64,000 nucleotides of DNA from a virus, in the IMG/VR virus record IMGVR_UViG_3300050821_010968, positions 92,273-156,272 of that record, one strand, 5' to 3'. Below are positions 17,855 to 33,173 of this stretch, piece by piece (position 1 is the first letter of the stretch; each line of letters opens with the position of its first letter). A model generated the notes under the pieces. It searched no databases. It was given only the letters and a program-made list of their open reading frames with translations, and had not been told where the DNA came from. Both the position numbers and the translations under genes were made by a program.

Positions 17855-17929
17855 ACCAGTTTAGTTCAGGGGTAGAACAGCGGCCTCCAAAACCGCGTGT
17901 CGGGCGTTCGAATCGCTCAACTGGTGCCA
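17855..17929 (+). tRNA. tRNA-Trp (CCA)
   Basis: Acceptor ACCAGTT/AACTGGT, G73, encoded CCA. Anticodon loop CTCCAAA. Canonical elbow: D-loop with GG, T-loop TTCGAAT. Confidence 0.93.
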
Positions 17930-17937
17930 CGATTTTT

Positions 17938-18011
17938 AGGGTGTGAGCCGGGCGGTGAGGCTCTTGTCTGCAAAACAAGCGATATGGGTTCGACTCCCAT
18001 ACACTCTTCCA
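17938..18011 (+). tRNA. tRNA-Cys (GCA)
   Basis: Acceptor AGGGTGT/ACACTCT, encoded CCA. Anticodon stem CTTGT/ACAAG, loop CTGCAAA. T-loop TTCGACT, D-loop with GG. Confidence 0.93.
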
Positions 18012-18095
18012 AATCGGCGCAGCAAGAAAGCACACAGTCGTGATATCAGGTTTGCTCATCGTCGTGAGCGCCGTATTGCGAAACTAGAATTAAAT

Positions 18096-18171
18096 GCGGG
18101 TAAAGCCTAGAGGCGAGGCGCTACGTTGCCAACGTAGATAGAGGAGATCACTGGGCTCCTTACCCGCTCCA
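18096..18171 (+). tRNA. tRNA-Gly (GCC), odd T-loop
   Basis: Acceptor GCGGGTA/TACCCGC, T73, encoded CCA; anticodon stem CTACG/CGTAG with loop TTGCCAA. D-loop AGAGGCG keeps GG. The T-stem AGGAG/CTCCT closes a 9-base loop ATCACTGGG instead of the usual 7-base TTCRANY. Confidence 0.85.
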
Positions 18172-18177
18172 GTTTAT

Positions 18178-18240
18178 GCCGAGGTCTTGTATAAAGACGG
18201 GGGCAAGTCCCGGCTGGTGTAATTCCAGCCCTTGGCTCCA
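18178..18240 (+). tRNA. D-armless tRNA-like element A
   Basis: This is a 63-base element with acceptor GCCGAGG/CCTTGGC, T73 and encoded CCA, and a T-arm GCTGG/CCAGC with loop TGTAATT. Between them are only a 13-base segment TCTTGTATAAAGA and a hairpin CGGG/CCCG that touches the T-stem directly. There is no D-arm and no readable anticodon loop (no T33). T-loop position 55 is G and 56 is T, so the usual contact with a D-loop is lost, as expected if there is none. Confidence 0.6.
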
Positions 18241-18245
18241 AGTTT

Positions 18246-18318
18246 GCTTGGGTCGTGTAAGAGATAGCATGTAAGCGCTTATTTGCTATCGGTGGTGAAA
18301 TCCCATCCCCTAGCGCCA
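18246..18318 (+). tRNA. D-armless tRNA-like element B
   Basis: This 73-base element has acceptor GCTTGGG/CCCTAGC (one mismatch), G73 and encoded CCA, and a T-arm GGTGG/CCATC with loop TGAAATC. The rest is a 10-base linker TCGTGTAAGA and a 7-bp hairpin GATAGCA/TGCTATC abutting the T-stem, with a 14-base loop. The linker resembles that of element A (TCTTGTATAAAGA), so the two are probably homologous. No anticodon can be assigned. Confidence 0.55.
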
Positions 18319-18551
18319 ATTCGATATTCATCCATGTCGGGTGCGTAGGACTTTTGGTAATAGCCGTTAGCTCTGTCATTCAAATAAGTACGGCCTTGGC
18401 TGACCGGAATAAATAGAATGATATTCTGACGTTTCTCGGTTTCGATTGCATGTCTAAAGCCCTAAAGGAGACATGGTCGAGTAACCTGCATGAGGAAGCG
18501 CTGTTTGTGGTGCAGCAGGAAAGGTGAGGATATCGCCAACCACGGAAATTC
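18319..18551 (+). other. spacer within the tRNA group
   Basis: No supported gene. A 25-codon frame (18450-18527) starting MSKALKETW has no ribosome-binding site. Short hairpins such as ATGTCT/AGACAT at about 18449 and CCTGC/GCAGG near 18488 suggest structured RNA, but no cloverleaf forms. Confidence 0.4.
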
Positions 18552-18627
18552 GCGGTGTTAGCTCAATGGTGGTAGCGGCTGACTTCCAATCAGCAGGACG
18601 GGGAATCAGTATCCTCACACCGCACCA
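18552..18627 (+). tRNA. tRNA-Gly (TCC), A54/G58 T-loop
   Basis: Acceptor GCGGTGT/ACACCGC, A73, encoded CCA; anticodon stem GCTGA/TCAGC, loop CTTCCAA. D-loop keeps GG. T-loop is ATCAGTA: 55-56 remain TC but 54 is A and 58 is G. Confidence 0.88.
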
Positions 18628-18644
18628 GACAGACCCTTCAGTCG

Positions 18645-18675
18645 GAGAAGTGGCACCTTCGGGTGCCATTTCTTT
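18645..18675 (+). terminator. terminator after the first tRNA group
   Basis: TGGCACC-TTCG-GGTGCCA, extended on both sides by GAA/TTC, followed by TTTCTTT. Confidence 0.75.
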
Positions 18676-18685
18676 ATGAGGTAAT

Positions 18686-19330
18686 ATGACCAACTTCACG
18701 TATAGTGTTTTCTACGGACAGTTCTCTGTTCCGGTCGAAATGGTCGTCGCGATCTTCGCGCCAAATCCCCCGATTGCCGAGATCGGTTCTACTGTCCCAT
18801 CCGTTATCCTAAACTGGGGACTTTCCAAAGCTGCCGTCTCGCTTTCACTCAACGGTGTTGCTCTCAACCCCGCCATTACACAGGTCACCCAAATCGGTCC
18901 TTTCACCGACGATACGACATGGGAACTGATTTGCGCCGATGAAGATACGCAGGCACGTCAGCGGACCCAGCTTGAATTCCTTCCATTGGTTTACTGGGGT
19001 GTCGTTCAAGCACCTCCGGCGTCGAGCGCGGATATTTTAGCTTTAACATCAAGCGAGTTTATCGACCGCAAGTTGGAGATGACAGTTCAGTATGCCTGCG
19101 CAGCCGGAGGCTATCCATGCATCGCATATCCGGCAAGCATTGGACTGCCTCGTCGCCCGCAAATTGCAACGCCTGATGTAATGCCCAATACGTTAGACTG
19201 GAACGCCTTTACCGATTACACGGCTACAACTGTCTCGCATACGAATGCATCCGGATACACGCAAGACTATCTTGTGCTGACCTTTAATACCCTCCAAACG
19301 AGTCAGAACGTTCCTGTTATTTGGACCTAA
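18686..19330 (+). CDS. hypothetical structural protein
   Basis: The 214-residue protein has a beta-rich pattern with Pro-rich turns (FAPNPPIAEIGSTVPSVILNW) and a repeated strand-turn design through the middle (AVSLSLNGVALNP, TTWELICADED). No signal peptide. Behind GAGG at ATG 18686. The ILNWGLSKAAVSLSLNG type of segment is common in phage tail-associated proteins whose domains read as Ig-like. The role is unproven. Confidence 0.55.
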   Translation: MTNFTYSVFYGQFSVPVEMVVAIFAPNPPIAEIGSTVPSVILNWGLSKAAVSLSLNGVALNPAITQVTQIGPFTDDTTWELICADEDTQARQRTQLEFLPLVYWGVVQAPPASSADILALTSSEFIDRKLEMTVQYACAAGGYPCIAYPASIGLPRRPQIATPDVMPNTLDWNAFTDYTATTVSHTNASGYTQDYLVLTFNTLQTSQNVPVIWT

Positions 19331-19346
19331 TCATGAGTCATCATTC

Positions 19347-19375
19347 TTGACTCTATCTGTCTTAAATGTCATCTT
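19347..19375 (+). promoter_or_regulatory. promoter
   Basis: TTGACT 19347-19352, 17-base spacer, CATCTT 19370-19375 (weak -10). Upstream of the gene at 19405. Confidence 0.45.
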
Positions 19376-19404
19376 GCAGTTCATAATCTCTTAAGGAAAT
19401 TTCC

Positions 19405-19872
19405 ATGGCAAGCGGCGTATACGATCCGGAACGCGACCACAGCGATATGTCGCAATTGACAACCGTCAATCGCAACAATGTGGTGGGCGCACTCAATGAA
19501 GTTAATGCAGCAGGAAAGGCAGCTACCGCAGCCGTGGCTCTCGCCATCAAGTGCCAGCACGTCGCCATTGGCGTAGCAGGCCCTGTCGCGATCCCAGCGC
19601 TTCCGTCAGGCTCGAAGATTATTGGCATCCGCGAGCACGTCACTGCGGCTTACCCAAGCGGCGGTAAGATCACCGTAGGCGACCATTCTGGCGGCAGCGG
19701 CGCACTGGCTGCAACGTCCATCACGGATGGAACGCATGCAGCCGTCACAGCGCCCGGCGACTTTAATGTGCCAGTCTACGTGCAGCCTGTCGGCGATCTC
19801 AGCATCTCAATTTCAGGCGGCGACGGATCGACCGGCGCAGCTACCGTCATGATCGAGTACATCGACGCCTAA
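19405..19872 (+). CDS. fibre-associated structural protein (probable)
   Basis: The 155-residue protein contains QLTTVNRNNVVGALNEV near residue 17-35, a motif very common at the oligomerising start of phage tail fibre and appendage proteins (T-x2-VVGAINE-type helix), followed by a beta-rich C-terminal domain (VAIPALPSGSKIIGI, KITVGDHSGG). AAGGAAA precedes ATG 19405. Its end overlaps the end of the converging minus-strand operon by 4 bases. Confidence 0.6.
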   Translation: MASGVYDPERDHSDMSQLTTVNRNNVVGALNEVNAAGKAATAAVALAIKCQHVAIGVAGPVAIPALPSGSKIIGIREHVTAAYPSGGKITVGDHSGGSGALAATSITDGTHAAVTAPGDFNVPVYVQPVGDLSISISGGDGSTGAATVMIEYIDA

Positions 19873-20585
19873 TCGGCGATGTAGTCCAAACCTGCCAAGC
19901 TATGCAGCGCATAGTTTTGAAGAATCCGGGGCTGAAGCGACTCAAGTTGCTTCAGCCTTTGGGTTATCTGGGCCTCTGTAAACTTGTTGTATAGGCCTTC
20001 CAGTGATGGAGCACCCGTTGGATGTTTCAGCATACTGGCACCGTAGGGATCGACGAATGTACGGCTCGATGCGAATGGCCCTTTCACATCGGGATATTGC
20101 CAGATGAGCAGCACGGTTTCGGGCGCAACATCGATGAGTGTATGGATTTGGTCATAGCACATCGTATGGCGCGAACCGACTTGGTGAACGCGAGTACCAC
20201 TTAACCTGAGCCAGCTTTCGCGCTCATATTTGAAACCTGCGCCGCCATTTAGAGGCGTACGGAAACTGTATTCCAAAAATTTTGTAACGCCGTCGCCATA
20301 CATCCCCGTCTCAGCCGTTTCGACCCATATGGCATTTCCTATTTTCCCACGTAGGACGAGAGTAGCAAAATCGTAGCGATGGTCATGTGGACTGACGATC
20401 TGCCGGTTCTTCCCAAGCGCGCGTCCACTTCCTTCATCGAAGAAATACGCCTTTATGGTCAGATGCGGATGCCTATGCAGGCAAACGTAATCGACGCCCG
20501 GCGCATGGAAGTCGCGGTAGGAGTTCGCAATGAGCGTTTTCATCTGTTCTTCTGGTGTTACGACTTGCATCATATTCAGGTGCAT
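19869..20585 (-). CDS. cupin-like metal-binding protein
   Basis: The 238-residue protein is the last gene of the minus-strand operon. It shows a cupin-type motif 1 (VSPHDHRYDFATLVLRGKI, with HxH) and a later His-containing strand (GSRHTMCYDQIHTLI) that could supply the third ligand, so it is probably a double-stranded beta-helix iron or manganese protein. Members act as dioxygenases or as sugar/amino-acid binding enzymes. It has AGGAGA upstream of ATG 20585. The assignment is by motif only. Its place in a transporter operon suggests it handles the imported or modified compound, which is inference. Confidence 0.6.
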   Translation of the reverse strand: MHLNMMQVVTPEEQMKTLIANSYRDFHAPGVDYVCLHRHPHLTIKAYFFDEGSGRALGKNRQIVSPHDHRYDFATLVLRGKIGNAIWVETAETGMYGDGVTKFLEYSFRTPLNGGAGFKYERESWLRLSGTRVHQVGSRHTMCYDQIHTLIDVAPETVLLIWQYPDVKGPFASSRTFVDPYGASMLKHPTGAPSLEGLYNKFTEAQITQRLKQLESLQPRILQNYALHSLAGLDYIAD

Positions 20586-20594
20586 AGCTTTCTC

Positions 20595-20804
20595 CTAGTT
20601 GATTCCAAGAACAATAGGAATTCCGTTCCAGACAAGGAACAGACCTGTCGCCATCAAGATCGGCATGATGACGCCAAAGATGCCGGTGTCCGCGACTTTA
20701 AGATTCAGTTTGATCACCGACGAGAACCAAAGTGCACTTACGCAGATGAGAGAACTTCCCATCATCGTGTAGGCCCACCCCATGAAGATATCAAACGCGG
20801 TCAT
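20595..20804 (-). CDS. small two-segment membrane protein
   Basis: The 69-residue protein has two hydrophobic stretches: about residues 8-29 (FMGWAYTMMGSSLICVSALWF) and 42-62 (GIFGVIMPILMATGLFLVW). Its ATG overlaps the ATPase stop (ATGA). I chose this start over an upstream in-frame one that lies within the ATPase gene. It is probably a subunit or helper of the ABC transporter. Confidence 0.65.
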   Translation of the reverse strand: MTAFDIFMGWAYTMMGSSLICVSALWFSSVIKLNLKVADTGIFGVIMPILMATGLFLVWNGIPIVLGIN

Positions 20805-21628
20805 AGTGTCGTAAAGATGCTCTTGATTTCCTGAACGGTAGAAACGAAGTTCGGCATATGCTCCACGTCCGTATGCCACGCCAAGTTGCGCTCGATTAGA
20901 TCGATGGTCTGCTGGATACGCGCACCCGGTACCGGCATTCCATGAACATCCTTATCGCGTCCGAGGATCAGGATCGTATCTGCGATCATGACGGCGCTCT
21001 CGATGTCGTGGGTCGAGAAGATGGTCGTATTCAGTTCGTCTCGCGACGATACCGCATCGATCACATCGCAGACCGTTTTCTTCGCGATGATGTCCAAGCC
21101 CGAGAACGGCTCGTCCATGAGCAGAAAGTGATTGCTAGAGAGCAACTGCTCGGCAATCGAGATTCGCTGTCTCTGGCCCCCTGAAAGCTCCTGCGGATAG
21201 ACGTGACGCTTATCGGCAAGTCCGAACTGCTCCAGAAGCTCCAGAACCTTGGCCTTTGCCGTCGTACTGTTTTTTTCGCGCATCCCGGCAGCCAAAAGCA
21301 GACTGCTCTCGACCGTTCGGTGTCCGAACAGGAGGTAATTCTGAGGCACTATTCCAACCATTCCAGCTTTGACTGGCGTCTGGTCAATGCCAATCAGAAC
21401 GGTACCTGAACTGGGCGGAAGAAGTCCTGAGAGGCGTTTGAAGAGTTGCGTCTTACCTGTCCCGCTCGGTGCCAAGAGCGCCACTTTCTGGCCTTGCGTG
21501 ATCCCCGGACGTTTGATGTCCCGAATTTCGATATTGACATCGCGCAGGATCGGCAAGCTGTAGTTCACGCACAGGCCAGTGACCTTAAGCAGAACTTCGG
21601 CGCGCTCGTAAGTGTAATCAGAAGACAT
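20801..21628 (-). CDS. ABC transporter ATPase subunit
   Basis: The 275-residue protein has all ATPase motifs: Walker A APSGTGKT (residues 53-60), signature LSGGQ, Walker B FLLMDEP, and switch His in STHD. It most resembles the ATPase subunits of nitrate/taurine-type (NitT/TauT) importers, matching the permease encoded just upstream. The first 45 residues and the C-terminal 50 (about WHTDVEHMPNFVSTV) are specific to this protein. It overlaps the permease stop and the next gene's start (ATGA both times), so the subunits are translationally coupled. It sits on the cytoplasmic side. Confidence 0.93.
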   Translation of the reverse strand: MSSDYTYERAEVLLKVTGLCVNYSLPILRDVNIEIRDIKRPGITQGQKVALLAPSGTGKTQLFKRLSGLLPPSSGTVLIGIDQTPVKAGMVGIVPQNYLLFGHRTVESSLLLAAGMREKNSTTAKAKVLELLEQFGLADKRHVYPQELSGGQRQRISIAEQLLSSNHFLLMDEPFSGLDIIAKKTVCDVIDAVSSRDELNTTIFSTHDIESAVMIADTILILGRDKDVHGMPVPGARIQQTIDLIERNLAWHTDVEHMPNFVSTVQEIKSIFTTL

Positions 21629-22416
21629 CAGCCGCGTCCTTTCCCGAGATTGGCATACGGGCAAGCGATATAGTTTCGGAACATCCCAATGAGGAAGTCC
21701 TGAATAATTCCAACACAGAAAAGGCTAATCAGGATCGCGCCGGTTGCGGGCAAATCCATATGCCGGTTCATATTGATCAGCACGGTGCCTATGCCGCCCT
21801 CTGAGCGAACGATGCCCTCGACCATTGTCAGCATCATCCAACCCATCGCAGCATTGACGCGAAGAGATTCGAGCGCCTCGTCGAGGGTTCCCAAGACGAT
21901 CACCTCATAGATGATGCGAATCTGGCTCATCCCGAGGGTCTCGGCATGGTCATATTCTTCCTGCGGGATTGCTTGAACAATACTGAGCATATCGCGGAGA
22001 TAAAAGACTGTCATACCGAACGTCAGCACCATGACCTTGAGTGCATGCCCGTCCGGCGCGATCAGCGTGAAGGCCAGCATGAGGCCGACGAGGCCGAGAT
22101 AGCGAAGCCCGGTGATGAACTTTACGAATGGTTCGAGGATGGGCAAGACGGACAAATACGCGAGCGAAAGTGAAATCGCGACAGTCCAGAAGATTGCTTC
22201 CATCATCGTCCAGATGCTGGTGCCGAATTCAAGGAAGGTACCATTCTGCCGGAGCGTCTCGAACGCATTGAGAATTTCAGTTGGCTTGGGAAGGAAACGG
22301 ATATCAACGAATTGCCAGATCAACAGCGTGACAACAATCCAGCCGAAGATGATCGCCGACCGCGTACTCTTATTGATACAGGCATTCGGCGTGATGAGGG
22401 AAAGCAGATTGTTCAT
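21628..22416 (-). CDS. ABC transporter permease (NitT/TauT type)
   Basis: The 262-residue protein has about six hydrophobic segments (first at about 22-38) and the cytoplasmic coupling loop, EYDHAETLGMSQIRIIYEVI, close to the EAA motif of importer permeases. The family moves small organic or inorganic anions across the inner membrane together with an ATPase and a binding protein, all of which are present in this operon. The start overlaps the upstream gene's stop (ATGA). A permease of this type in a phage genome is very unusual. Confidence 0.9.
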   Translation of the reverse strand: MNNLLSLITPNACINKSTRSAIIFGWIVVTLLIWQFVDIRFLPKPTEILNAFETLRQNGTFLEFGTSIWTMMEAIFWTVAISLSLAYLSVLPILEPFVKFITGLRYLGLVGLMLAFTLIAPDGHALKVMVLTFGMTVFYLRDMLSIVQAIPQEEYDHAETLGMSQIRIIYEVIVLGTLDEALESLRVNAAMGWMMLTMVEGIVRSEGGIGTVLINMNRHMDLPATGAILISLFCVGIIQDFLIGMFRNYIACPYANLGKGRG

Positions 22417-22643
22417 GAATGGTCGTCCTTCAATGCACGGACTTCCCGGAGGCAGCCTTTGATATCAGAATCACTGGAAAACCACTTAGCGATGATTTTG
22501 AGAACACGCGCAATCGTTTTCTCGCGCCCGGATTGTTCACCTCGCAGGAAGGCTAATTCGATTGCTCCCGCGACTTGAGTATCCCTGCGCATACGATTTG
22601 CCCAAGGCTTTTTCAGGTCTTCAGTGCATTCGTTCCGTCTCAT
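22413..22643 (-). CDS. small basic helical protein
   Basis: The 76-residue protein starts MRRNECTEDLKKPW and is mostly helical and charged (QVAGAIELAFLRGEQSGREKTIARVLKIIAKWF). It overlaps the genes on both sides by ATGA. The start is set by that overlap; a longer in-frame start at 22790 would lie inside the upstream gene. No family recognised; it may be a cytoplasmic regulator or subunit of the transporter. Confidence 0.6.
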   Translation of the reverse strand: MRRNECTEDLKKPWANRMRRDTQVAGAIELAFLRGEQSGREKTIARVLKIIAKWFSSDSDIKGCLREVRALKDDHS

Positions 22644-22867
22644 TTCGGCATCATCTTCCTGATCGTATTCCACTTCACGAGAGCGGTTCCCGTCCAGACG
22701 AATTCTGCAATTCCAAAGGGCCATGCTCCTTGCGCAAAACCGTAGATCGATCCCAAAAGACAACTTCCAGCGAACGCCAGCATGAACCAATGACTACGAG
22801 ACTCAAGGCTATGAAACAGAATCATTAAAGTGACGGCGAGCAAGCCAAATGCCGTCAGCAATGTCAC
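22640..22867 (-). CDS. small multi-pass membrane protein
   Basis: The 75-residue protein has hydrophobic segments at about 3-20, 28-46 and 48-60 (TAFGLLAVTLMILF, WFMLAFAGSCLLGSIYGFA). ATGA overlaps on both sides bind it into the operon. The function is unknown; it is likely an accessory membrane component. Confidence 0.62.
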   Translation of the reverse strand: MTLLTAFGLLAVTLMILFHSLESRSHWFMLAFAGSCLLGSIYGFAQGAWPFGIAEFVWTGTALVKWNTIRKMMPK

Positions 22868-23115
22868 TCCTCTATCTCATTTATTGCAGCCCATAACTCA
22901 TAATCCTCGACCGTATCAAGATGATGCCTCTCTGCAATCTCACTGGCTTTCTTTAGGGGATAGGAGACGACCGAAAGAGATTCCCAATGACCTCCCGTGT
23001 CGAGAGGATTGTTACTGGGCTCATGGAACCATCCATAAGGCATGTACTCATCTTCGCCTAGTTCGACGAGGAAAGCATACTTGGTTACGATAGGCATTTC
23101 GCGGCACGTACTCAT
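22864..23115 (-). CDS. hypothetical acidic protein
   Basis: The 83-residue protein is acidic and reads like a soluble alpha/beta domain (VTKYAFLVELGEDEYMPYGWFHE, ASEIAERHHLDTVEDYELWAAI). It overlaps the next gene by ATGA. A 23-base gap separates it from the Cys-rich gene upstream. No family recognised. Confidence 0.58.
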   Translation of the reverse strand: MSTCREMPIVTKYAFLVELGEDEYMPYGWFHEPSNNPLDTGGHWESLSVVSYPLKKASEIAERHHLDTVEDYELWAAINEIEE

Positions 23116-23138
23116 TTATGCTTTTCCTCGCCGTATTG

Positions 23139-27730: not shown

Positions 27731-27766
27731 CCGCGCTTCTCAGGTCCCTATTGAGGTAGCGCCGTC

Positions 27767-27979: not shown

Positions 27980-28201
27980 ATGAAGTACAATATGCGAAAG
28001 AATAAGGCTGCTTCGACGAAGCACCCGAATTCGAAGGCGCTTGTTGGCGTCATCACCAACAATCAGGCTGGTCCGCCAACTTCTGCGCCTCGTGGCGCAT
28101 GGCCTACCGGAGAATTGATGGACCCGAATAATAATGCACATCCCAATCAGGCGATGTGCGATCCCGACATGGACCCGGACGCAGACACGCCGGGCATGTA
28201 A
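27980..28201 (+). CDS. small hypothetical protein
   Basis: The 73-residue protein has a basic first half (MKYNMRKNKAASTKHPNSK) and an acidic, Asn/Asp/Pro-rich tail (DPDMDPDADTPGM), suggesting disorder. It starts directly after the previous stop. No function recognised. Confidence 0.55.
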   Translation: MKYNMRKNKAASTKHPNSKALVGVITNNQAGPPTSAPRGAWPTGELMDPNNNAHPNQAMCDPDMDPDADTPGM

Positions 28202-28231
28202 CTACCCTCAACCAACAAAAGGAAATCCCGA

Positions 28232-28354
28232 ATGGCCTCGAAGAAACCTGCATTCCCCGGTGCAGCACCTCCCTTTGGTAAGAAGAAAGGTGCAGGCAAG
28301 AAACCGGCTGGCGGAAAGAAGGCAATGCCGATGCCCAAGAAGAAGGGCAAATAA
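28232..28354 (+). CDS. small Lys/Pro/Gly-rich basic protein
   Basis: The 40-residue protein is made almost entirely of Lys, Gly, Pro and Ala (for example FGKKKGAGKKPAGGKKA). AAAAGGAAA precedes ATG 28232. Such peptides bind DNA or RNA, or are structural tails. No homologue is evident. Confidence 0.55.
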   Translation: MASKKPAFPGAAPPFGKKKGAGKKPAGGKKAMPMPKKKGK

Positions 28355-28356
28355 AA

Positions 28357-28566
28357 TTGGACCAAGGTATCTCTGATCTTCAGGCTTCTATCGGGCCTGA
28401 TCTCCAGCAAGAACATCAAGCTGGAACAGCAGCCCTTCAAGCCGCGATGAAGTTACATCAGGGACACATGGATGGAACAATTTCTCGTAATCCAGATACG
28501 AACGCTCAAATGACTGGATTATTGAAACGTGCTGGTAAGGCGATGGCTAAACTGGCACCTGCGTAA
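28357..28566 (+). CDS. small hypothetical protein (TTG start)
   Basis: The 69-residue protein starts at TTG 28357, 3 bases after the previous stop. It is helical with alternating Gln/His/Ala (QQEHQAGTAALQAAMKLHQ). No ATG with a ribosome-binding site gives a better start. No family recognised. Confidence 0.5.
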   Translation: MDQGISDLQASIGPDLQQEHQAGTAALQAAMKLHQGHMDGTISRNPDTNAQMTGLLKRAGKAMAKLAPA

Positions 28567-28642
28567 ATAAGATCGTCCTGCGACAGATGAAAATCTGGCG
28601 ATCTTTGTGTCTGTGAAAGCAGGCTGGCGGCGAGTAGCCGAA

Positions 28643-28672
28643 CAAGGCCCGGAGCGATCCGGGCCTTTTCAT
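28643..28672 (+). terminator. intrinsic terminator
   Basis: AAGGCCCGGA-GCGA-TCCGGGCCTT, a 10-bp stem with a GNRA loop, followed by TT and C. Confidence 0.85.
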
Positions 28673-28686
28673 TGTGTGGGAATAAA

Positions 28687-29007
28687 ATGAAACTTGCTCC
28701 TTGGACCGCCGAGTTTGGCGGCAATTTATATCACTGGTGTCCAGCTTGTGAAGAACTGCATGTTATCCCGACAGGGCGCTGGGCACGATCAGGCACTGAT
28801 GATAAACCAACGTACAGTCCGTCATTCGGTCAGCACTTGAAACGTGGATACTGCCATTACAATATAACGGATGGGCAGTTGTTTTTTCATGCTGACAGTT
28901 ATCACGCACTTCGAGGCACAGTTCCCATGCCGGAAATTCCGGACACGGCGCTGGAAGAAATTGATGGCGAGGTCGGCGTGACGACTGATGCTGTATTTTG
29001 CCGCTAG
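28687..29007 (+). CDS. DUF6527-like protein
   Basis: The 106-residue protein contains WCPACEELHVIPTGRW, DKPTYSPSFGQHL and CHYNITDGQLFFHADSYHAL, the order and residues I associate with the DUF6527 family, found in phages and prophages. The CxxC near the start probably binds zinc. The function of the family is unknown. ATG 28687 is used; the upstream in-frame TTG has no support. Confidence 0.75.
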   Translation: MKLAPWTAEFGGNLYHWCPACEELHVIPTGRWARSGTDDKPTYSPSFGQHLKRGYCHYNITDGQLFFHADSYHALRGTVPMPEIPDTALEEIDGEVGVTTDAVFCR

Positions 29008-29300
29008 TCGTCGAACGAAGGATAGATGCCGGTTTGACGATGATGCCGATGCGCCCAAAGTAATTTCTGGGCTCTTCGAACCATCAAATCTCGCATTTCG
29101 GGAAAGAGCTTTAAGCCTTTTCGTTCCTTGACGATGAGTCGAAGAAGTCCTCGGACTTCATAATGGTAGCGCTGCTTTGGCGTCAACGATCTATACCATT
29201 CCATATATTCCGCCTCAGCCACGCGGAGTTCCTGCTCCTGTTCCGCATCGGTGAGCGCGATCCAGCGTTCCCATTCTTCATTGTCCCAATCATCGTCCAT
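29004..29300 (-). CDS. hypothetical acidic helical protein
   Basis: The 98-residue protein starts MDDDWDNEEWERWIALTDAE and is mostly helical with a central aromatic segment (EYMEWYRSLTPKQRYHYEV). GGAGATC is present upstream of its ATG. It converges on the DUF6527-like gene with a 4-base overlap. No function recognised. Confidence 0.6.
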   Translation of the reverse strand: MDDDWDNEEWERWIALTDAEQEQELRVAEAEYMEWYRSLTPKQRYHYEVRGLLRLIVKERKGLKLFPEMRDLMVRRAQKLLWAHRHHRQTGIYPSFDD

Positions 29301-29721
29301 TTTGATCTCCTTTACTCATATGAGCCGCTCATCCGGGAATTCGGATGCATTGCCATAAAGAAAGCGACACGACGCCTGCAAAAGCGGGCGTCCTTTTGTT
29401 AATCGCGGCAACCCGGCGAAACCGGAAAGTGGATTTTGAAATTTCTTTGTTGACATACGAGTCTGGATATGAGACACAAAGACTTCCGGCGCGACTCGCG
29501 CCACTTAAAGGTTTGAAAATGTTCGCAACGTTGTCACTCAAGTCGAGCCCCAAACTGGCCTCCGCCAGTTTGCATTCGCTCGTGCTGACAACGCCAGCGA
29601 CCGCACCACTCTCAAGCCGCTTACGGGACTAAGTCCCTCTCGCGGCTAACACGAGTCGCGACCAAACCTTCTGATCCCCGCTCCAGAAACAGGTCCGGCT
29701 CCAACAGGAGACGAAGAACGA
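29301..29721 (+). other. intergenic region before the main tRNA array
   Basis: It holds a hairpin GACGCC/GGCGTC with CTTTT (29372-29400), a promoter at 29450-29478 (TTGACA, 17, GACACA), and a 37-codon frame (29519-29632, MFATLSLKSSPKL) with no clear ribosome-binding site. Further inverted segments (GCGACTCGCGCC and CGAGTCGCG) suggest a structured leader for the array transcript. Confidence 0.5.
29450..29478 (+). promoter_or_regulatory. promoter for the main tRNA array
   Basis: TTGACA 29450-29455, 17-base spacer, GACACA 29473-29478. The first tRNA starts 244 bases downstream, with no gene in between that is well supported. Confidence 0.65.
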
Positions 29722-29797
29722 CTGTCTATAGCTTAACTTGGTAGAGCCCCGGCCTCGGAAGCTGGTGATTCAGGTTCAAATCCTGATAGGCAGACCA
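29722..29797 (+). tRNA. tRNA-Pro (CGG)
   Basis: Acceptor CTGTCTA/TAGGCAG, A73, encoded CCA; anticodon loop CTCGGAA. Canonical T-loop TTCAAAT and GG in the D-loop. Confidence 0.92.
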
Positions 29798-29844
29798 ATT
29801 CAATCATCGTAAGCGGAGATTCGCTATGATGATATTAGAATTAT

Positions 29845-29932
29845 CAGAGTGTCGGATAGGCTGGCTCATTCCGCCTGCTTTGGGAGCAGGAGCCGAAAGG
29901 CATCGTGTGTTCGAATCACACCACTCTGACCA
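29845..29932 (+). tRNA. tRNA-Pro (TGG) with long variable arm
   Basis: Acceptor CAGAGTG/CACTCTG, A73, encoded CCA; anticodon stem CCTGC/GCAGG, loop TTTGGGA. The variable region is 14 bases and holds GCC-GAAA-GGC, unusual for proline. T-loop TTCGAAT, D-loop with GG. Confidence 0.85.
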
Positions 29933-29938
29933 TTTTGT

Positions 29939-30010
29939 GCATGATCTCCGTAAGCCGGTGATGGCTGAAACTATCGGGACGCGAAGAAGGCGAGACTACC
30001 CGAATCATGC
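29939..30010 (+). tRNA. tRNA-like element C
   Basis: GCATGAT and ATCATGC form a perfect 7-bp acceptor 72 bases apart. Inside are a hairpin AGCC/GGCT and a stem TCGGG/CCCGA with a 20-base loop, in place of normal arms. No CCA, no readable anticodon. It sits in line with real tRNAs. Confidence 0.35.
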
Positions 30011-30021
30011 AATTGTTTTTT

Positions 30022-30097
30022 GCCGATATGGCGCTAGTGGAGCGCAACTGTTTTGTAATCAGTCAGGGAGGCAGTTCGATCCTGTCTATCGGCACCA
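30022..30097 (+). tRNA. tRNA-Thr (TGT)
   Basis: Acceptor GCCGATA/TATCGGC, A73, encoded CCA; anticodon loop TTTGTAA. Canonical elbow (T-loop TTCGATC, GG). Same anticodon as the permuted element at 1750-1825 but otherwise different in sequence. Confidence 0.9.
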
Positions 30098-30098
30098 C

Positions 30099-30173
30099 GC
30101 CTTTTAATCATAGAAAGCGATGAGCACCTTTGGTAGGGGTGAGAGGAACGGGCAGGTCGTTCAAGAGGCACCA
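30099..30173 (+). tRNA. tRNA-Thr (GGT), G55 class
   Basis: Acceptor GCCTTTT/AAGAGGC, A73, encoded CCA; D-stem TCAT/ATGA; anticodon stem CACCT/GGGTG, loop TTGGTAG. T-stem GAACG/CGTTC is perfect but the loop is GGCAGGT. D-loop AGAAAGCG has A18-G19. Confidence 0.85.
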
Positions 30174-30178
30174 GTTGA

Positions 30179-30254
30179 TCCGCTTAAGCATTGGTAGCGA
30201 TGCGCTCGTCTCGTAAACGAGAGATGATCTGTGCAAGTCAGATAAGCGGAACCA
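30179..30254 (+). tRNA. tRNA-Thr (CGT), G55 class
   Basis: Acceptor TCCGCTT/AAGCGGA, A73, encoded CCA; anticodon stem CTCGT/ACGAG. T-loop TGCAAGT (G55); D-loop TGGTAGCG aligns with A18-G19. Confidence 0.9.
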
Positions 30255-30269
30255 ATTTTATACTGAGAT

Positions 30270-30356
30270 GGATCGGTGGACAGAGTAGTCGAAGTCACGG
30301 GTCTTTTAAACCCACGCAGAAATGCCATCGTGAGTGCAAATCTCACCCGATCCTCA
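30270..30356 (+). tRNA. tRNA-Lys (TTT), G55 class, extended acceptor
   Basis: Acceptor GGATCGG/CCGATCC; anticodon stem GGGT/ACCC, loop CTTTTAA. T-loop TGCAAAT (G55), D-loop AGAGTAGTCGAA (A18-G19). Variable region of 15 bases with GCA-GAAA-TGC. The flanks TATACTGA and TCAGTATA extend the acceptor by 8 bp past a 3-base bulge; CCA is not encoded. Confidence 0.82.
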
Positions 30357-30372
30357 GTATACTGAATAATTT

Positions 30373-30460
30373 GGACTCGTGACCCGAGAAGCGATGGGCG
30401 TGGATTCTTAATCCACTAGCGTAACTGCCACCGAGAGTGCAATTCTCTCCGAGTCCTCCA
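30373..30460 (+). tRNA. tRNA-Lys (CTT), G55 class
   Basis: Acceptor GGACTCG/CGAGTCC, T73, encoded CCA; anticodon stem GTGGA/TCCAC, loop TTCTTAA. T-loop TGCAATT (G55), D-loop GAGAAGCGAT (A18-G19). Long variable region. Confidence 0.88.
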
Positions 30461-30465
30461 AGTTT

Positions 30466-30549
30466 GGCCCTATGGCGTAATAGAAGCCGCGTTGGTCTTA
30501 GGAACCAATGTCGAAAGACGTGGGGGTGCAAGTCCCTCTAGGGCTACCA
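30466..30549 (+). tRNA. tRNA-Leu (TAG), G55 class
   Basis: Acceptor GGCCCTA/TAGGGCT, A73, encoded CCA; anticodon stem TTGGT/ACCAA, loop CTTAGGA. Class II variable arm. T-loop TGCAAGT, D-loop GTAATAGAA (A18-G19). Confidence 0.9.
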
Positions 30550-30590
30550 ACTTACAAGTGAATCGTACTACTCGATCACAAGTTTATAAT

Positions 30591-30673
30591 GCCCATCTGG
30601 CGGAATGGCAGACGCGACGGCTTTAAATCCCGTTCTCATTGAGGTGTCGGTTCGACCCCGACGTTGGGCACCA
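30591..30673 (+). tRNA. tRNA-Leu (TAA)
   Basis: Acceptor GCCCATC/GTTGGGC (one mismatch), encoded CCA; anticodon loop TTTAAAT. Canonical elbow: T-loop TTCGACC, D-loop with GG. Confidence 0.9.
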
Positions 30674-30685
30674 AATAACGAATAT

Positions 30686-30768
30686 GCCTCCATGGTGGAA
30701 ATGGTAGACACGCTGGCTTCAAATCCCAGTGCGAAAGCGTCCCAGTTCGAGTCTGGGTTGAGGCACCA
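30686..30768 (+). tRNA. tRNA-Leu (CAA)
   Basis: Acceptor GCCTCCA/TTGAGGC (one mismatch), encoded CCA; anticodon loop TTCAAAT. Canonical elbow: T-loop TTCGAGT, GG. Confidence 0.9.
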
Positions 30769-30777
30769 CTAAAATAA

Positions 30778-30861
30778 CGCTCTATGGCGAAACTAGTAGA
30801 CGCGCAACGTTGAGAACGTTGTCCTTCGGGATTCCAGATGCAAGTTCTGGTAGAGCGACCA
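30778..30861 (+). tRNA. tRNA-Leu (GAG), G55 class
   Basis: Acceptor CGCTCTA/TAGAGCG, A73, encoded CCA; anticodon stem CAACG/CGTTG, loop TTGAGAA. T-loop TGCAAGT (G55), D-loop with CTAGTAG (A18-G19). Confidence 0.9.
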
Positions 30862-30869
30862 AATTAAAT

Positions 30870-30945
30870 GCTGCGTAGGACTAGCAAGCGAGTCGCCGCC
30901 CTGTGAAGGCGGAGGAGGTCCGTGCAAATCGGACACGCAGTTCCA
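30870..30945 (+). tRNA. tRNA-His (GTG), G55 class
   Basis: Acceptor GCTGCGT/ACGCAGT, encoded CCA; anticodon stem CCGCC/GGCGG, loop CTGTGAA. T-loop TGCAAAT (G55), D-loop AGCAAGCG (A18-G19). Confidence 0.88.
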
Positions 30946-30949
30946 GTTC

Positions 30950-31021
30950 GGGGTAACCGCGAGGGCGGAGATTGGTCTTGCAAACCGATTGCGATGGGCG
31001 CGACTCCCATTTACTCCACCA
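30950..31021 (+). tRNA. tRNA-Ala (TGC), G55 class
   Basis: Acceptor GGGGTAA/TTACTCC, A73, encoded CCA; anticodon loop CTTGCAA. T-loop CGCGACT (C54-G55-C56), short D-arm CCGC-GAGG-GCGG (A18-G19). A canonical tRNA-Ala with the same anticodon follows. Confidence 0.85.
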
Positions 31022-31027
31022 AGCTAC

Positions 31028-31103
31028 GGGCCTTTAGCTCATCTGGGAGAGCGGCTGCTTTGCAAGCAGCGGGTGGTCGGTTCAAGTCCGGCAAGGTCCA
31101 CCA
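31028..31103 (+). tRNA. tRNA-Ala (TGC)
   Basis: Acceptor GGGCCTT/AAGGTCC, A73, encoded CCA; anticodon stem GCTGC/GCAGC, loop TTTGCAA. Canonical elbow: T-loop TTCAAGT, D-loop with GG. Confidence 0.93.
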
Positions 31104-31110
31104 TTTTTAC

Positions 31111-31201
31111 AGAGAGTGAAGCCGTCGAGGTACGGCGACCGTTTCGAAAGCGGATCGAACTTCGAGAGAAGTTTGCGGAGCATCCCCGTCGCTCTCTGCC
31201 A
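31111..31201 (+). tRNA. tRNA-Ser (CGA), G55 class
   Basis: Acceptor AGAGAGT/GCTCTCT, encoded CCA; anticodon loop TTCGAAA. Variable arm AACTTC-GAGA-GAAGTT. T-loop AGCATCC (G55-C56), D-loop TCGAGGTA (A18-G19). Confidence 0.8.
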
Positions 31202-31206
31202 ATTAC

Positions 31207-31296
31207 GGAAGGTGAATCTAACCAGTGTTAGACTCCGTTTTGAAAACGGATGGAGCCCTAACCGGCTTGGGCGGCAGCAGCACCCGCCTTCCTCCA
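31207..31296 (+). tRNA. tRNA-Ser (TGA), G55 class
   Basis: Acceptor GGAAGGT/GCCTTCC, T73, encoded CCA; anticodon stem TCCGT/ACGGA, loop TTTGAAA; class II variable arm. T-loop best read as GGCAGCA (G55-C56), D-loop ACCAGTGT (A18-G19). Confidence 0.82.
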
Positions 31297-31366
31297 GTCA
31301 AGACCAGCGCAGGCCAACGTGCCGGAATGGTTGAAAGGGATGCGTCGTGGCATCTCGCGCAAAATT
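31297..31366 (+). other. possible tRNA-Ser remnant
   Basis: GTGCCGGAATGGTTGAAAGG resembles the 5' half of a class II tRNA (D-arm with GGTTGA), but no matching 3' half exists here. Probably a decayed tRNA. Confidence 0.35.
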
Positions 31367-31456
31367 GGAGCGTAAACGGGACGAGCGCGCCCGGCCTGCT
31401 TGGAAAGCATCGCGAGCCTGCAAAGGCCTCTGACGCAACTTCAGTGCGCTCCGCCA
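31367..31456 (+). tRNA. tRNA-Ser (GGA), G55 class
   Basis: Acceptor GGAGCGT/GCGCTCC, G73, encoded CCA; anticodon loop TTGGAAA. T-loop CGCAACT (G55), D-loop ACGAGCGCG (A18-G19). Confidence 0.82.
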
Positions 31457-31461
31457 GATTA

Positions 31462-31551
31462 GGAGAGTTAACTCATCAGGTGATGGGACAGGTTTGCTAA
31501 ACCTTGTGTACCTTTACGGGTATGGGACTCGGGTTCGCCAACTCTCCGCCA
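31462..31551 (+). tRNA. tRNA-Ser (GCT), degenerate T-arm
   Basis: Acceptor GGAGAGT/ACTCTCC, G73, encoded CCA; anticodon stem AGGT/ACCT, loop TTGCTAA; variable arm TACC/GGGTA. The T-arm region (31524-31540) does not fold into a 5-bp stem with a 7-base loop. Confidence 0.75.
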
Positions 31552-31594
31552 TTTACGACTTTCCCGTACCTGAGATACGCGAAAGTCGCGATCC

Positions 31595-31623
31595 TTGACC
31601 GCACCTGTCGAATCCCCTAGCCT
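31595..31623 (+). promoter_or_regulatory. promoter of a structured RNA
   Basis: TTGACC 31595-31600, 17-base spacer, TAGCCT 31618-31623. No gene follows for 230 bases; a structured RNA does. Confidence 0.6.
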
Positions 31624-31627
31624 CCCC

Positions 31628-31770
31628 AGATCGCGTGGCATCCGCGTCCGGCGCAAGCCGAGGTCGGGAGGGCTATGATAGGCCGGAGCGCAGGAGTAGC
31701 GCTGTTCTGGGATTGCTACAGCCCAGATGAAAAGCCTCTGGCCTTTCCTAGCCCTCCCGACAAGTTTTGG
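31628..31770 (+). ncRNA. unassigned structured RNA
   Basis: Downstream of the promoter at 31595 lie a GNRA hairpin CGGC-GCAA-GCCG (about 31649-31660) and a long stem GTCGGGAGGGCT (31663-31674) with AGCCCTCCCGAC (31750-31761), continued by AGGCC/GGCCT after an internal loop. The stem encloses AGCGC/GCGCT and CTGGG/CCCAG hairpins. There is no tRNA-like arm. No known RNA family recognised. Confidence 0.55.
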
Positions 31771-31817
31771 GAATGTCAAGTCAGTCAAACTGACTCACCA
31801 CCCCATATTGGGTATCC

Positions 31818-31846
31818 TTGACATTCAAAATCGAATCAGGTACACA
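31818..31846 (+). promoter_or_regulatory. promoter
   Basis: TTGACA 31818-31823, 17-base spacer, TACACA 31841-31846. The ATG at 31853 falls at the expected transcription start. Confidence 0.75.
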
Positions 31847-31852
31847 AACATC

Positions 31853-31942
31853 ATGAGCAAGAGATTCAACCGCGTGCAGCAAGTCAACTTCGTCCGGTAT
31901 ATTCCGGGCGGGTCTTCGGCGCGTGAGCAGGATATCTGGTAA
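31853..31942 (+). CDS. small protein, probably leaderless
   Basis: The 29-residue frame reads MSKRFNRVQQVNFVRYIPGG and ends SSAREQDIW. The ATG lies 7 bases after the -10 with no ribosome-binding site, and the gene is followed by its own terminator, so this is a complete small transcription unit. Function unknown. Confidence 0.55.
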   Translation: MSKRFNRVQQVNFVRYIPGGSSAREQDIW

Positions 31943-31964
31943 ACCCAGTCGCTCTCAAGGTTCC

Positions 31965-32002
31965 GAAAGGCCCGCCCGGTAAACACCGAGCGGGCCTTTT
32001 TG
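31965..32002 (+). terminator. intrinsic terminator
   Basis: AAAGGCCCGC pairs with GCGGGCCTTT across a 14-base loop that itself pairs partly (CGGT/ACCG), followed by T residues. Confidence 0.9.
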
Positions 32003-32014
32003 CATTTGGACCAT

Positions 32015-32100
32015 GGGAGTGCGGTCGAGTTAGAGAGCGGCGCTGGTCTGTAAAATCAGTCCCCACGGGTGAGTAGGTGCAATTCCTTCCACTCCCACCA
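32015..32100 (+). tRNA. tRNA-Tyr (GTA), G55 class
   Basis: Acceptor GGGAGTG/CACTCCC, A73, encoded CCA; anticodon stem CTGGT/ATCAG, loop CTGTAAA; class II variable arm. T-loop TGCAATT (G55), D-loop with TTAGAG (A18-G19). Confidence 0.88.
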
Positions 32101-32193
32101 AAAGCAGAACTCGTCAAAGACGACGAGTTACAAACGAAACAGACGTTAACTCGCCAGAAACGGCGAATTATGGAGATGAGAAGTAACGAATAT

Positions 32194-32268
32194 CGATCTG
32201 TAGCTCAGGAGTAGAGCAGGAGACTGAAAATCTTCGTGTCGGTGGTGCGAGACCATCCAGATCGACCA
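32194..32268 (+). tRNA. tRNA-Phe (GAA), G55 class
   Basis: Acceptor CGATCTG/CAGATCG, A73, encoded CCA; anticodon stem GGAGA/TCTTC, loop CTGAAAA. D-arm GCTC-AGGAGTA-GAGC shows A18-G19 where GG is usual; T-loop TGCGAGA (G55). The clearest member of the G55 class. Confidence 0.92.
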
Positions 32269-32269
32269 T

Positions 32270-32343
32270 ATCTCTTTAGCTCAGTGGGAGAGCACCGGTA
32301 TGACATGCCGTGATGAACTGGTTCGATTCCAGTAAGAGATACC
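32270..32343 (+). tRNA. tRNA-Val (GAC)
   Basis: Acceptor ATCTCTT/AAGAGAT, A73, encoded CCA; anticodon loop ATGACAT. Canonical elbow (TTCGATT, GG). Confidence 0.9.
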
Positions 32344-32348
32344 AAATT

Positions 32349-32424
32349 TCGGCCTATAGCTAAGTGGTACAGCAAGCGCCTGATGAGCGTTTATGCCCGA
32401 GTTCGATTCTCGGTAGGCCAACCA
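32349..32424 (+). tRNA. tRNA-Ile (GAT), copy 1
   Basis: Acceptor CGGCCTA/TAGGCCA with a C1-A72 mismatch, A73, encoded CCA; anticodon stem AGCGC/GCGTT, loop CTGATGA. Canonical elbow. Confidence 0.82.
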
Positions 32425-32429
32425 AATGA

Positions 32430-32504
32430 TGTCTCTTAGCTCATCGGTAGAGCAAACGGCTGATAACCGTTAGGTAGATGGTTCAACTCCATCAGGGACA
32501 ACCA
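32430..32504 (+). tRNA. tRNA-Ile (GAT), copy 2
   Basis: Acceptor TGTCTCT/AGGGACA, A73, encoded CCA; anticodon stem AACGG/CCGTT, loop CTGATAA. Canonical elbow (TTCAACT, GG). Confidence 0.92.
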
Positions 32505-32538
32505 AATCAACGTTTACTCGAAAGGAGTAAAAAAGTTT

Positions 32539-32613
32539 AGTTCCTTGGGCCAGTGGCTGGTCGCCTCCTTTACACGGAGATTTAGCGGAGTTCGATTCTC
32601 CGAGGAACTACCA
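32539..32613 (+). tRNA. tRNA-Val (TAC)
   Basis: Acceptor AGTTCCT/AGGAACT, A73, encoded CCA; anticodon stem CTCC/GGAG, loop TTTACAC. Canonical elbow (TTCGATT, GG). Confidence 0.9.
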
Positions 32614-32614
32614 T

Positions 32615-32690
32615 TCACCCTTGGCGCAACTGGTAGCGCAACAGACTCTGAATCTGGAGGCTCTTCGTTCGAATCGAAGAGGGTGAGCCA
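32615..32690 (+). tRNA. tRNA-Gln (CTG)
   Basis: Acceptor TCACCCT/AGGGTGA, G73, encoded CCA; anticodon loop CTCTGAA. Canonical elbow (TTCGAAT, GG). Confidence 0.92.
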
Positions 32691-32695
32691 AATTT

Positions 32696-32770
32696 TCAAG
32701 GATCGTCTAGCGGTAGGACACGACGCATTGAACGTCGGCAACGTGGGTTCGAATCCTACTCCTTGATCCA
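32696..32770 (+). tRNA. tRNA-Gln (TTG), A33
   Basis: Acceptor TCAAGGA/TCCTTGA, T73, encoded CCA; anticodon stem CGACG/CGTCG is perfect, loop CATTGAA, so position 33 is A rather than T. Canonical T-loop TTCGAAT. Confidence 0.88.
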
Positions 32771-32801
32771 AATCAATCTGTGAGATATGTCATCTCACTA
32801 T

Positions 32802-32878
32802 TCCTGTTAAGTGCACCGGGTGTGGACATCTGACTGTTAATCAGATCGCGGCAAGTTCGAGCCTTGCAACAGGAGCCA
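32802..32878 (+). tRNA. tRNA-Asn (GTT)
   Basis: Acceptor TCCTGTT/AACAGGA, G73, encoded CCA; anticodon stem TCTGA/TCAGA, loop CTGTTAA. T-loop TTCGAGC. Confidence 0.93.
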
Positions 32879-32915
32879 TTTTAATCAGTGTACGGATTAT
32901 CCGTATACATAATAC

Positions 32916-33004
32916 ACTGACGTAGTCTAACTGGATCAAGGCACCAGACTACGAATCTGGAGTGGGAAACCACATTGCGAGTTCGAATCTCGCCGTCAGT
33001 GCCA
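32916..33004 (+). tRNA. tRNA-Arg (ACG) with long variable arm
   Basis: Acceptor ACTGACG/CGTCAGT, G73, encoded CCA; anticodon stem CCAGA/TCTGG, loop CTACGAA. The variable region holds GTGG-GAAA-CCAC, not expected in arginine tRNA. Canonical T-loop TTCGAAT. Confidence 0.88.
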
Positions 33005-33016
33005 CTTAATGTGCAT

Positions 33017-33091
33017 AGTCCCATAGCTCAGCGGAAGAGCCTTCGTCTTCTAAACGAATGGTCGGCGGTTCGAATCCGTCTGGGACTGCCA
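33017..33091 (+). tRNA. tRNA-Arg (TCT)
   Basis: Acceptor AGTCCCA/TGGGACT, G73, encoded CCA; anticodon stem TTCGT/ACGAA, loop CTTCTAA. Canonical elbow. Confidence 0.93.
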
Positions 33092-33095
33092 CCTT

Positions 33096-33173
33096 CTCGC
33101 TATAGTTCAAATGGATAGAACGTTGACCTCCGAAGTCTTCACGATCCGAGTTCGAGCCTCGGTAGCGAGTCCA
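33096..33173 (+). tRNA. tRNA-Arg (CCG)
   Basis: Acceptor CTCGCTA/TAGCGAG, T73, encoded CCA; anticodon loop CTCCGAA with a GAC/GTC stem core. T-loop TTCGAGC. Last tRNA of the array. Confidence 0.9.

Follow-up and report, generated by a model that had tools for sequence, protein, structure and literature searches.

The DNA examined here is a stretch of 64,000 nucleotides (the window) from IMG/VR virus record IMGVR_UViG_3300050821_010968, positions 92,273 to 156,272, and forms the final 64 kb of this 156 kb record. It carries a large cluster of transfer RNA (tRNA) genes, and the current study concerns the elbow of these tRNAs, where residue 18 of the D-loop meets residue 55 of the T-loop. Ten of the genes clearly combine A18 with G55, while the others that could be read have G18 with T55 (U55 in the RNA), apart from one ambiguous gene. 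The window phage is a relative of the phiCbK-like Caulobacter phages. Its tail protein is ~42% identical to theirs, and a PhoH gene lies ~15 kb before the tail gene in the record, an arrangement also found in phiCbK-like phages.

tRNA genes of the window and their elbow positions

ARAGORN detected 27 tRNAs in the window. Rfam added Gly-GCC (18096), Gly-TCC (18552) and Glu-CTC (27375, just under the Rfam cut-off), and seven more were read by hand (Thr-GGT, Lys-CTT, a second Ala-TGC, Ser-CGA, Ser-TGA, Ser-GGA and Ser-GCT), Thr-GGT and Lys-CTT being missing from the ARAGORN list. The total of 37 tRNA-like genes agrees with the first-pass annotation, which had been made from the letters without database searches. 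Positions 18 and 55 were readable in 33 of the 37; the four genes not placed were Gly-GCC (9-base T-loop), the second Ala-TGC (short D-arm), and Ser-TGA and Ser-GCT (irregular T-arms).

A scripted alignment of 31 window tRNAs gave 19 genes with T55/G18, ten with G55/A18, and one each with T55/A18 and G55/G18 (Fisher P 2.6e-6). Both mixed cells are reading problems, because Glu-CTC, the T55/A18 case, has a 12-base D-loop with its GG further along, beyond the search range of the script, and Ser-CGA, the G55/G18 case, fits both readings. With Glu-CTC re-read and Arg-CCG and Gly-TCC added by hand, the T55 genes comprised 22 with G18 and none with A18, and the G55 genes ten with A18 and one ambiguous (P 1.2e-7). 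C56 was present in all 31 scripted genes, G19 being assigned by D-loop reading. The ten clear A18/G55 genes lack the canonical U55 with G18, but all of them retain G19 and C56. Side variants were A54/T58 in Glu-CTC and Ser-CGA, G54/G58 in Thr-GGT, and C54 in Ser-GGA.

These results bear out the earlier observations that all T55 tRNAs keep G18-G19 (22 of 22 readable) and that 18 and 55 are exchanged as a set while G19-C56 stays (A18 in 10 of 11 G55 genes). Apart from the ambiguous Ser-CGA, the alignment placed G18 in none of the 11. The number of G55/A18 tRNAs, which had been given as about 14 with 13 named, was slightly high, since Ser-CGA, Ser-TGA and the second Ala do not give clean readings.

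Irregular genes such as the window Ser-TGA, Ser-GCT, Gly-GCC and second Ala, as judged by eye, could suggest that the pattern reflects mis-alignment or decayed genes. This explanation has a negligible probability, since the G55 stems are paired like the T55 stems and the same pairing of states occurs in hundreds of well-scoring tRNAs. The mean paired share of stem positions was 0.948 in the 11 G55 genes and 0.952 in the 20 T55 genes, and the idea that the G55 genes are generally decayed was rejected on this basis. Individual G55 genes ranged from 0.86 to 1.0, and the ten clear G55/A18 genes had the cloverleaf of elongator tRNAs, with paired stems, a 7-base anticodon loop and CCA, although Lys-TTT ends in TCAG in the scripted layout, making its encoded CCA doubtful. 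Chance association of 18 with 55 was rejected by the counts given above and by the viral tRNA set described below.

Table 1. Positions of the tRNA genes and other features discussed (window coordinates unless a locus is named)
Feature	Position	Strand	Observation
YrlA-like RNA	1739..1856	+	Rfam RF02553, 34.8 bits, E 1.2e-5, under gathering score; permuted tRNA-like module
TROVE+VWA protein gene	3184..4557	+	Ro/Rsr-type
HNH endonuclease-like protein	16813..17304	+	PHROG match
Whole tRNA region	17855..33173	+	22 readable T55 genes, all G18-G19; 3 of 22 hand-read or re-read
tRNA-Gly(GCC)	18096..18171	+	9-base T-loop (ATCACTGGG) flanked by paired T-stem arms; read from sequence
tRNA-like structure	18178..18240	+	T-loop TGTAATT
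tRNA-like structure	18246..18318	+	T-loop TGAAATC
tRNA-Pro(TGG), tRNA-Arg(ACG)	29845..29932, 32916..33004	+	Long variable arms
tRNA-Thr(GGT)	30099..30173	+	D-loop AGAAAGCG (A18 G19), T-loop GGCAGGT (G54 G55 C56, G58); hand alignment, located and tabulated by script
tRNA-Thr(CGT)	30179..30254	+	D-loop TGGTAGCG, T-loop TGCAAGT, A18/G55; ARAGORN and scripted alignment
tRNA-Lys(TTT)	30270..30355	+	D-loop GAGTAGTCGA, T-loop TGCAAAT, A18/G55, long variable arm; ARAGORN and scripted alignment
tRNA-Lys(CTT)	30373..30460	+	D-loop GAGAAGCGA, T-loop TGCAATT, A18/G55, long variable arm; scripted alignment
tRNA-Leu(TAG)	30466..30549	+	D-loop AATAGAAG, T-loop TGCAAGT, A18/G55; ARAGORN and scripted alignment
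tRNA-Leu(GAG)	30778..30861	+	D-loop AACTAGTAG, T-loop TGCAAGT, A18/G55; ARAGORN and scripted alignment
tRNA-His(GTG)	30870..30945	+	D-loop AGCAAGCG, T-loop TGCAAAT, A18/G55; ARAGORN and scripted alignment
Second tRNA-Ala(TGC)-like	30950..31021	+	T-loop CGCGACT (G55), short D-arm, no assignment of position 18; by eye, left out of counts
tRNA-Ser(CGA)	31111..31201	+	T-loop AGCATCC (G55; A54/T58), D-loop TCGAGGTA fits A18 or G18; ambiguous
tRNA-Ser(TGA)-like	31207..31296	+	A18 G19 plausible, irregular T-arm; by eye, left out of counts
tRNA-Ser(GGA)	31367..31456	+	D-loop ACGAGCGCG, T-loop CGCAACT, A18/G55, C54, weak anticodon stem; hand alignment, script-located
tRNA-Tyr(GTA)	32015..32100	+	D-loop AGTTAGAGAG, T-loop TGCAATT, A18/G55; ARAGORN and scripted alignment
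tRNA-Phe(GAA)	32194..32268	+	D-loop AGGAGTA, T-loop TGCGAGA, A18/G55; ARAGORN and scripted alignment
RlaP gene	L354:3502-4320		Beside G55 array
Ro/TROVE protein gene	L436:6069-7754		Beside G55 array
RtcB gene	L444:1582-3246		Beside G55 array

Several other features of the cluster were observed. The Lys, Pro(TGG) and Arg(ACG) tRNAs have long variable arms of 14–16 bases, as does Lys-CTT of phage Kabachok. Two tRNA-like structures have CCA ends and acceptor/T-arm pairing without a normal D or anticodon arm, and their T-loops contain G55 and no C56. The gene for the HNH endonuclease-like protein lies a short distance before the start of the tRNA cluster, and a thymidylate kinase-like gene is located between the two.

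Covariation of positions 18 and 55 in phages and other viruses

Eleven related or similar named phage records were scanned for tRNAs, leaving out one Citromicrobium phage and one CcrPW tRNA locus near 258 kb. G55 tRNAs occurred in five of the 11, namely Bajun (5 of 26 tRNAs), Kikimora (4 of 30), Kabachok (3 of 24), Colossus (1 of 30) and CcrPW (1 of 31), and none were found in phiCbK (25 tRNAs), CcrSC (25), BL57 (27), Rogue (23), MD18 (34) or Cp1R7A-A1 (24). Some D-loops of the same isoacceptor in the Caulobacter and Brevundimonas phages differ almost solely at position 18. Lys-CTT has CAGTAGCGA with G55 in Kabachok and CAGTGGCGA with T55 in phiCbK and Rogue, Met-CAT has AGTCCAGTA with G55 in Kikimora and AGTCCGGTA with T55 in CcrSC and Colossus, and Val-GAC has AGTAGAA with G55 in Bajun, Kabachok and Kikimora and AGTGGGA with T55 in the window.

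A larger set was drawn from 307 viral loci, among the matches listed in two T-arm pattern scans of IMG/VR and one protein-based scan; a single-protein query for relatives gave no match, and an alignment query was used in its place. Loci were chosen by T-arm pattern or neighbouring protein, the D-loop never being used for selection. The pattern scans, of viruses and genomes alike, give listed matches only, so that no frequencies can be derived from them. Together with the named phages, 987 tRNAs were reduced to 815 by removal of duplicates, and to 661 by exclusion of those with a score <48, without CCA, or without T54 and C56; the scanner requires C56 and A58 and misses other T-loops.

T55 was found in 588 of these 661 unique tRNAs, with G18 in 576 and A18 in three. 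The 73 G55 tRNAs had A18 in 69 cases, three were readable either way and one was unassigned, so that G18 accompanies G55 in at most three. The first-pass annotation had proposed a calculation of the mutual information between the two positions and a comparison with other phages. The former amounted to 0.427 of the 0.501 bits at position 55, against 0.027 for the next column (position 57), and the latter gave the same coupling. When the anticodon and the two elbow positions (18 and 55) were masked, a tree built from 678 tRNAs required 63 changes at position 55. Among 16 well-supported independent pairs on this tree, position 18 moved with 55 in 13–16 (mean 15.2) and against it in none. The 18-55 exchange thus recurs independently across phages and, as described below, in some cellular genomes.

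The occurrence of G55 is patchy, with 0 of 25 tRNAs in phiCbK, 11 of 31 in the scripted window set, and 8 of 250 in 22 viral loci found via the PhoH gene and not by T-loop (some of them copies of the named phages). The viral G55 tRNAs span 27 anticodons with no evident amino-acid preference. Both observations would be expected if phage tRNAs drifted in a purely neutral manner between two structurally fit states, the second elbow being of no use to the phage. Such drift is a possible but less probable explanation, and cannot alone account for the strict occurrence of A18 with G55 (69 of 73), which calls for a structural constraint. It therefore bears only on the adaptive value of the exchange.

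Cellular genomes, TruB and neighbouring genes

A T-arm pattern scan of bacterial and archaeal genomes gave at least 119 loci. The scanner called a G55 tRNA in 41 of the 119 listed loci and none in the other 78, one of whose matches was of the Caulobacterales transfer-messenger RNA (tmRNA) kind described below. Within the listed loci, A18 was present in 86 of 101 tRNAs with TGC in the T-loop (G18 was scored in seven, several of them readable as A18, C18 in five and T18 in three), and G18 in 128 of 130 with TTC. The idea of a phage-only phenomenon was rejected by these G55 tRNAs. When ten array-bearing or G55-rich loci were set aside, tRNA-Cys accounted for 19 of 32 in the listed loci, from Patescibacteria, archaea and others. 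Chromosomal tRNA-Cys(GCA) with A18/G55 recurs, among the matches listed, in Patescibacteria and archaea (L344, L371, L373, L392, L396 and L399, and the archaeal L345, L352, L389, L395 and L419). A further 148 genomes, belonging to the same class as a Clostridia seed genome, gave 31 pattern matches. Of the 30 examined, five were tRNAs, in four genomes including the seed.

Nine genomes of Caulobacterales, the likely host group of the phage, contained 28–45 T55 matches each. One identical G55 match, present in 9 of 9, is a two-piece tmRNA with T-loop TGCGATT (one of the nine was checked with Rfam). Of three further G55 matches, one was a tRNA-like 3' end called by neither ARAGORN nor Rfam, and two look like chance. 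G55 tmRNA genes were noted at L470, L486, L498 and L515, comprising the Caulobacterales two-piece tmRNA, two from Patescibacteria and one from a genome of the order of Mycoplasma sp. SG1.

The complete chromosome of Mycoplasma sp. SG1 (L402/G001) has 28 tRNAs above the Rfam cut-off, and ARAGORN likewise called 28 in the stretches analysed. G55 is present in the sole tRNAs for Asp, Glu, Gln and Pro, and also in the Trp tRNA that reads UGA; all of these except Pro have A18. As a G55 tRNA is the only isoacceptor for the first four amino acids, the form must presumably serve decoding in a cell; cellular G55 tRNAs, mostly with A18, thus include sole isoacceptors, and the form should be able to serve translation. 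For the window G55 tRNAs, charging and ribosome use may be expected by analogy with SG1. The first-pass annotation had suggested poor use by ribosomes, based on staphylococcal tRNA-Gly, which seems to be inefficiently used in translation according to PMC4810233. G55 tRNAs as specialised non-ribosomal tRNAs of this kind are very improbable, as the SG1 isoacceptors and the 27 viral anticodons run counter to it, and the peptidoglycan-type explanation for the class is contradicted by SG1.

SG1 gave no match to TruB, the Psi55 (pseudouridine 55) synthase. Of 119 genomes in its order, 12 lacked TruB and eight contained the G55 pattern GGTGCRANYCC-N11-CCA, the reversed pattern giving no match in the 119. 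All eight were among the 12 that lack TruB, with none among the 107 bearing it (P 6e-10). Six had a tRNA-Ile(GAT) with A18 beside tRNA-Ala, one was SG1, and one a tmRNA. No match to PF01509 (TruB) was found anywhere in the 156 kb phage record, which may be a fragment.

Among the matches listed, seven loci of Verrucomicrobia metagenome-assembled genomes had tRNA arrays that were largely or wholly G55 (G55/T55 counts: L354 11/1, L364 10/0, L376 13/3, L383 8/0, L388 6/0, L436 12/1 and L444 5/0), and the genomes bearing them possess TruB. Genes for a Ro/TROVE protein, RtcB and RlaP (of an RNA-repair polymerase family) lie beside three of the arrays, and HNH_4 proteins were found near arrays at L354, L388 and L563 (on the same contig as L376). 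The window phage itself encodes a TROVE+VWA protein and, upstream of its gene, a YrlA-like RNA, possibly forming a phage Ro-Y RNA pair. These neighbours and the phage Ro and YrlA-like RNA genes are the only hints that such tRNAs may escape nucleases or surveillance, as the first-pass annotation had suggested. They would fit reserve tRNAs, i.e. G55/A18 marking a back-up set that is spared by a nuclease, toxin or quality-control factor reading the G18-Psi55 elbow and is encoded with RNA-repair proteins. This proposal is doubtful, and was kept so because few flanking genes were tested: the flanking survey covered only ~30 open reading frames, and no such genes occurred at two of the seven arrays (L364 and L383). 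Moreover, the remaining viral loci examined, which are short, gave no Ro match, and many G55 tRNAs are solitary in chromosomes, like the tRNA-Cys genes above. To our knowledge, the known tRNA-damaging defences cut the anticodon loop. A broader proposal, to which we likewise assign a low probability, is that a second, modification-free elbow evolves whenever a tRNA escapes TruB, either because a reduced genome has lost the enzyme or because the tRNA resides in phage or RNA-repair-linked arrays, where a whole back-up set would be converted to differ from the resident tRNAs and survive their damage.

A proposed second tRNA elbow and its relation to known systems

Sequence comparison favours, with a probability of about 0.7, the interpretation that A18-G55 is a translation-competent, Psi55-independent tRNA elbow that has been reached repeatedly by coupled change. 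Phage tRNAs would then have two interchangeable elbows, G18-U55, which the host can convert to G18-Psi55, and A18-G55. In the latter, residue 18 would still be a purine where it intercalates in the T-loop, with G19-C56 kept and T54-A58 staying, and an A18-G55 tertiary contact would replace G18-Psi55 and hold the L-shape without Psi55 and without 2'-O-methylguanosine 18 (Gm18). The presence of G55 makes Psi55 impossible, and A at residue 18 precludes Gm18; the earlier suggestion that these tRNAs escape host modification is true in that narrow sense. The A18-G55 state may be accessible where U55 is not reliably modified, as in TruB-less cells and perhaps in phage tRNAs that are produced in large amounts during late infection. 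Its role in the window phage is most likely ordinary decoding by modification-independent tRNAs. For the most part, the exchange has probably spread through nearly neutral compensatory evolution, which links two fit states via an intermediate that is rare.

Several observations weigh against this interpretation. The mollicute genomes are related, so that the eight G55 cases may represent only about three independent events, one of them a tmRNA. Among 188 genomes of a Patescibacteria class, G55 occurred in 25 of 139 without a TruB match and in 6 of 49 with one (P 0.50; the G55 matches examined there included two tmRNAs and two that did not resolve into tRNAs), and a general rule leading from TruB loss to G55 failed here. 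TruB was present in 22 of 31 tested G55 genomes, drawn from the 41 listed G55 loci, and likely phage hosts possess it (Caulobacter vibrioides, the search control). The coupling is also not absolute, as some G55 tRNAs of cellular arrays have C18 or T18, two of the five Clostridia-class G55 tRNAs have a clear G18, and the SG1 Pro tRNA combines G55 with a 6-base D-loop lacking A18.

A natural alternative elbow that recurs on many branches and forms the sole tRNA for an amino acid would allow a direct test of the purpose of Psi55 and Gm18. It would also improve tRNA-finding models and provide a sequence mark for TruB-independent tRNAs. Both the association with TruB loss in mollicutes and the occurrence of RNA-repair genes next to G55 arrays lend themselves to testing.

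Psi55 is termed universally conserved in PMC4810234. The A18-G55 elbow shares with the canonical one (G18-Psi55, G19-C56, T54-A58) the G19-C56 pair, T54-A58 in most cases, purine 57 and the loop lengths, and differs from it in that the 18-55 pair is A-G and Psi55 is impossible. TrmK activity was not regained when a tRNA-Leu carried the double change G18U-U55G (PMC9801127), an exchange that differs from A18-G55. Phage tRNAs whose altered anticodon loops let them escape tRNA nucleases likewise depart from the host consensus (PMC10264068); in a search of the main text of that paper, the terms T-loop, T-arm, D-loop, elbow and G18 did not occur. A literature search, whose coverage excluded most subscription papers, gave no recognised description of A18-G55 tRNAs. 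The A18-G55 form represents a genuine variation on the tRNA elbow that is widespread in nature, rather than a novel type of RNA.

The alphaproteobacterial two-piece tmRNA (RF01849) also has a T-loop with G55 (TGCGATT in the nine Caulobacterales genomes), but is a tmRNA and not a decoding tRNA. Staphylococcal non-proteinogenic tRNA-Gly has a GUGC T-loop, no standard elbow and another D-loop, and is used outside translation; unlike it, the present tRNAs cover 27 anticodons. A further parallel comes from the Steinberg laboratory, where suppressor tRNAs selected from randomised D/T-loop libraries were reportedly functional with G55 and a non-usual purine at 18, and with G54-G58, and were discussed as a 'specific and non-specific purine trap'. 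G54-G58 is also found in the window Thr-GGT; those tRNAs were selected in the laboratory, whereas the present ones are natural and widespread. In the non-specific purine trap, G55 is reported to accept any purine at 18. The natural tRNAs agree with these selections in that G55 seems to be workable, and they appear to prefer A18 (69 of 73 viral tRNAs, with G18 in at most three), the cellular exceptions among the listed matches comprising C18, T18 and two clear cases of G18.

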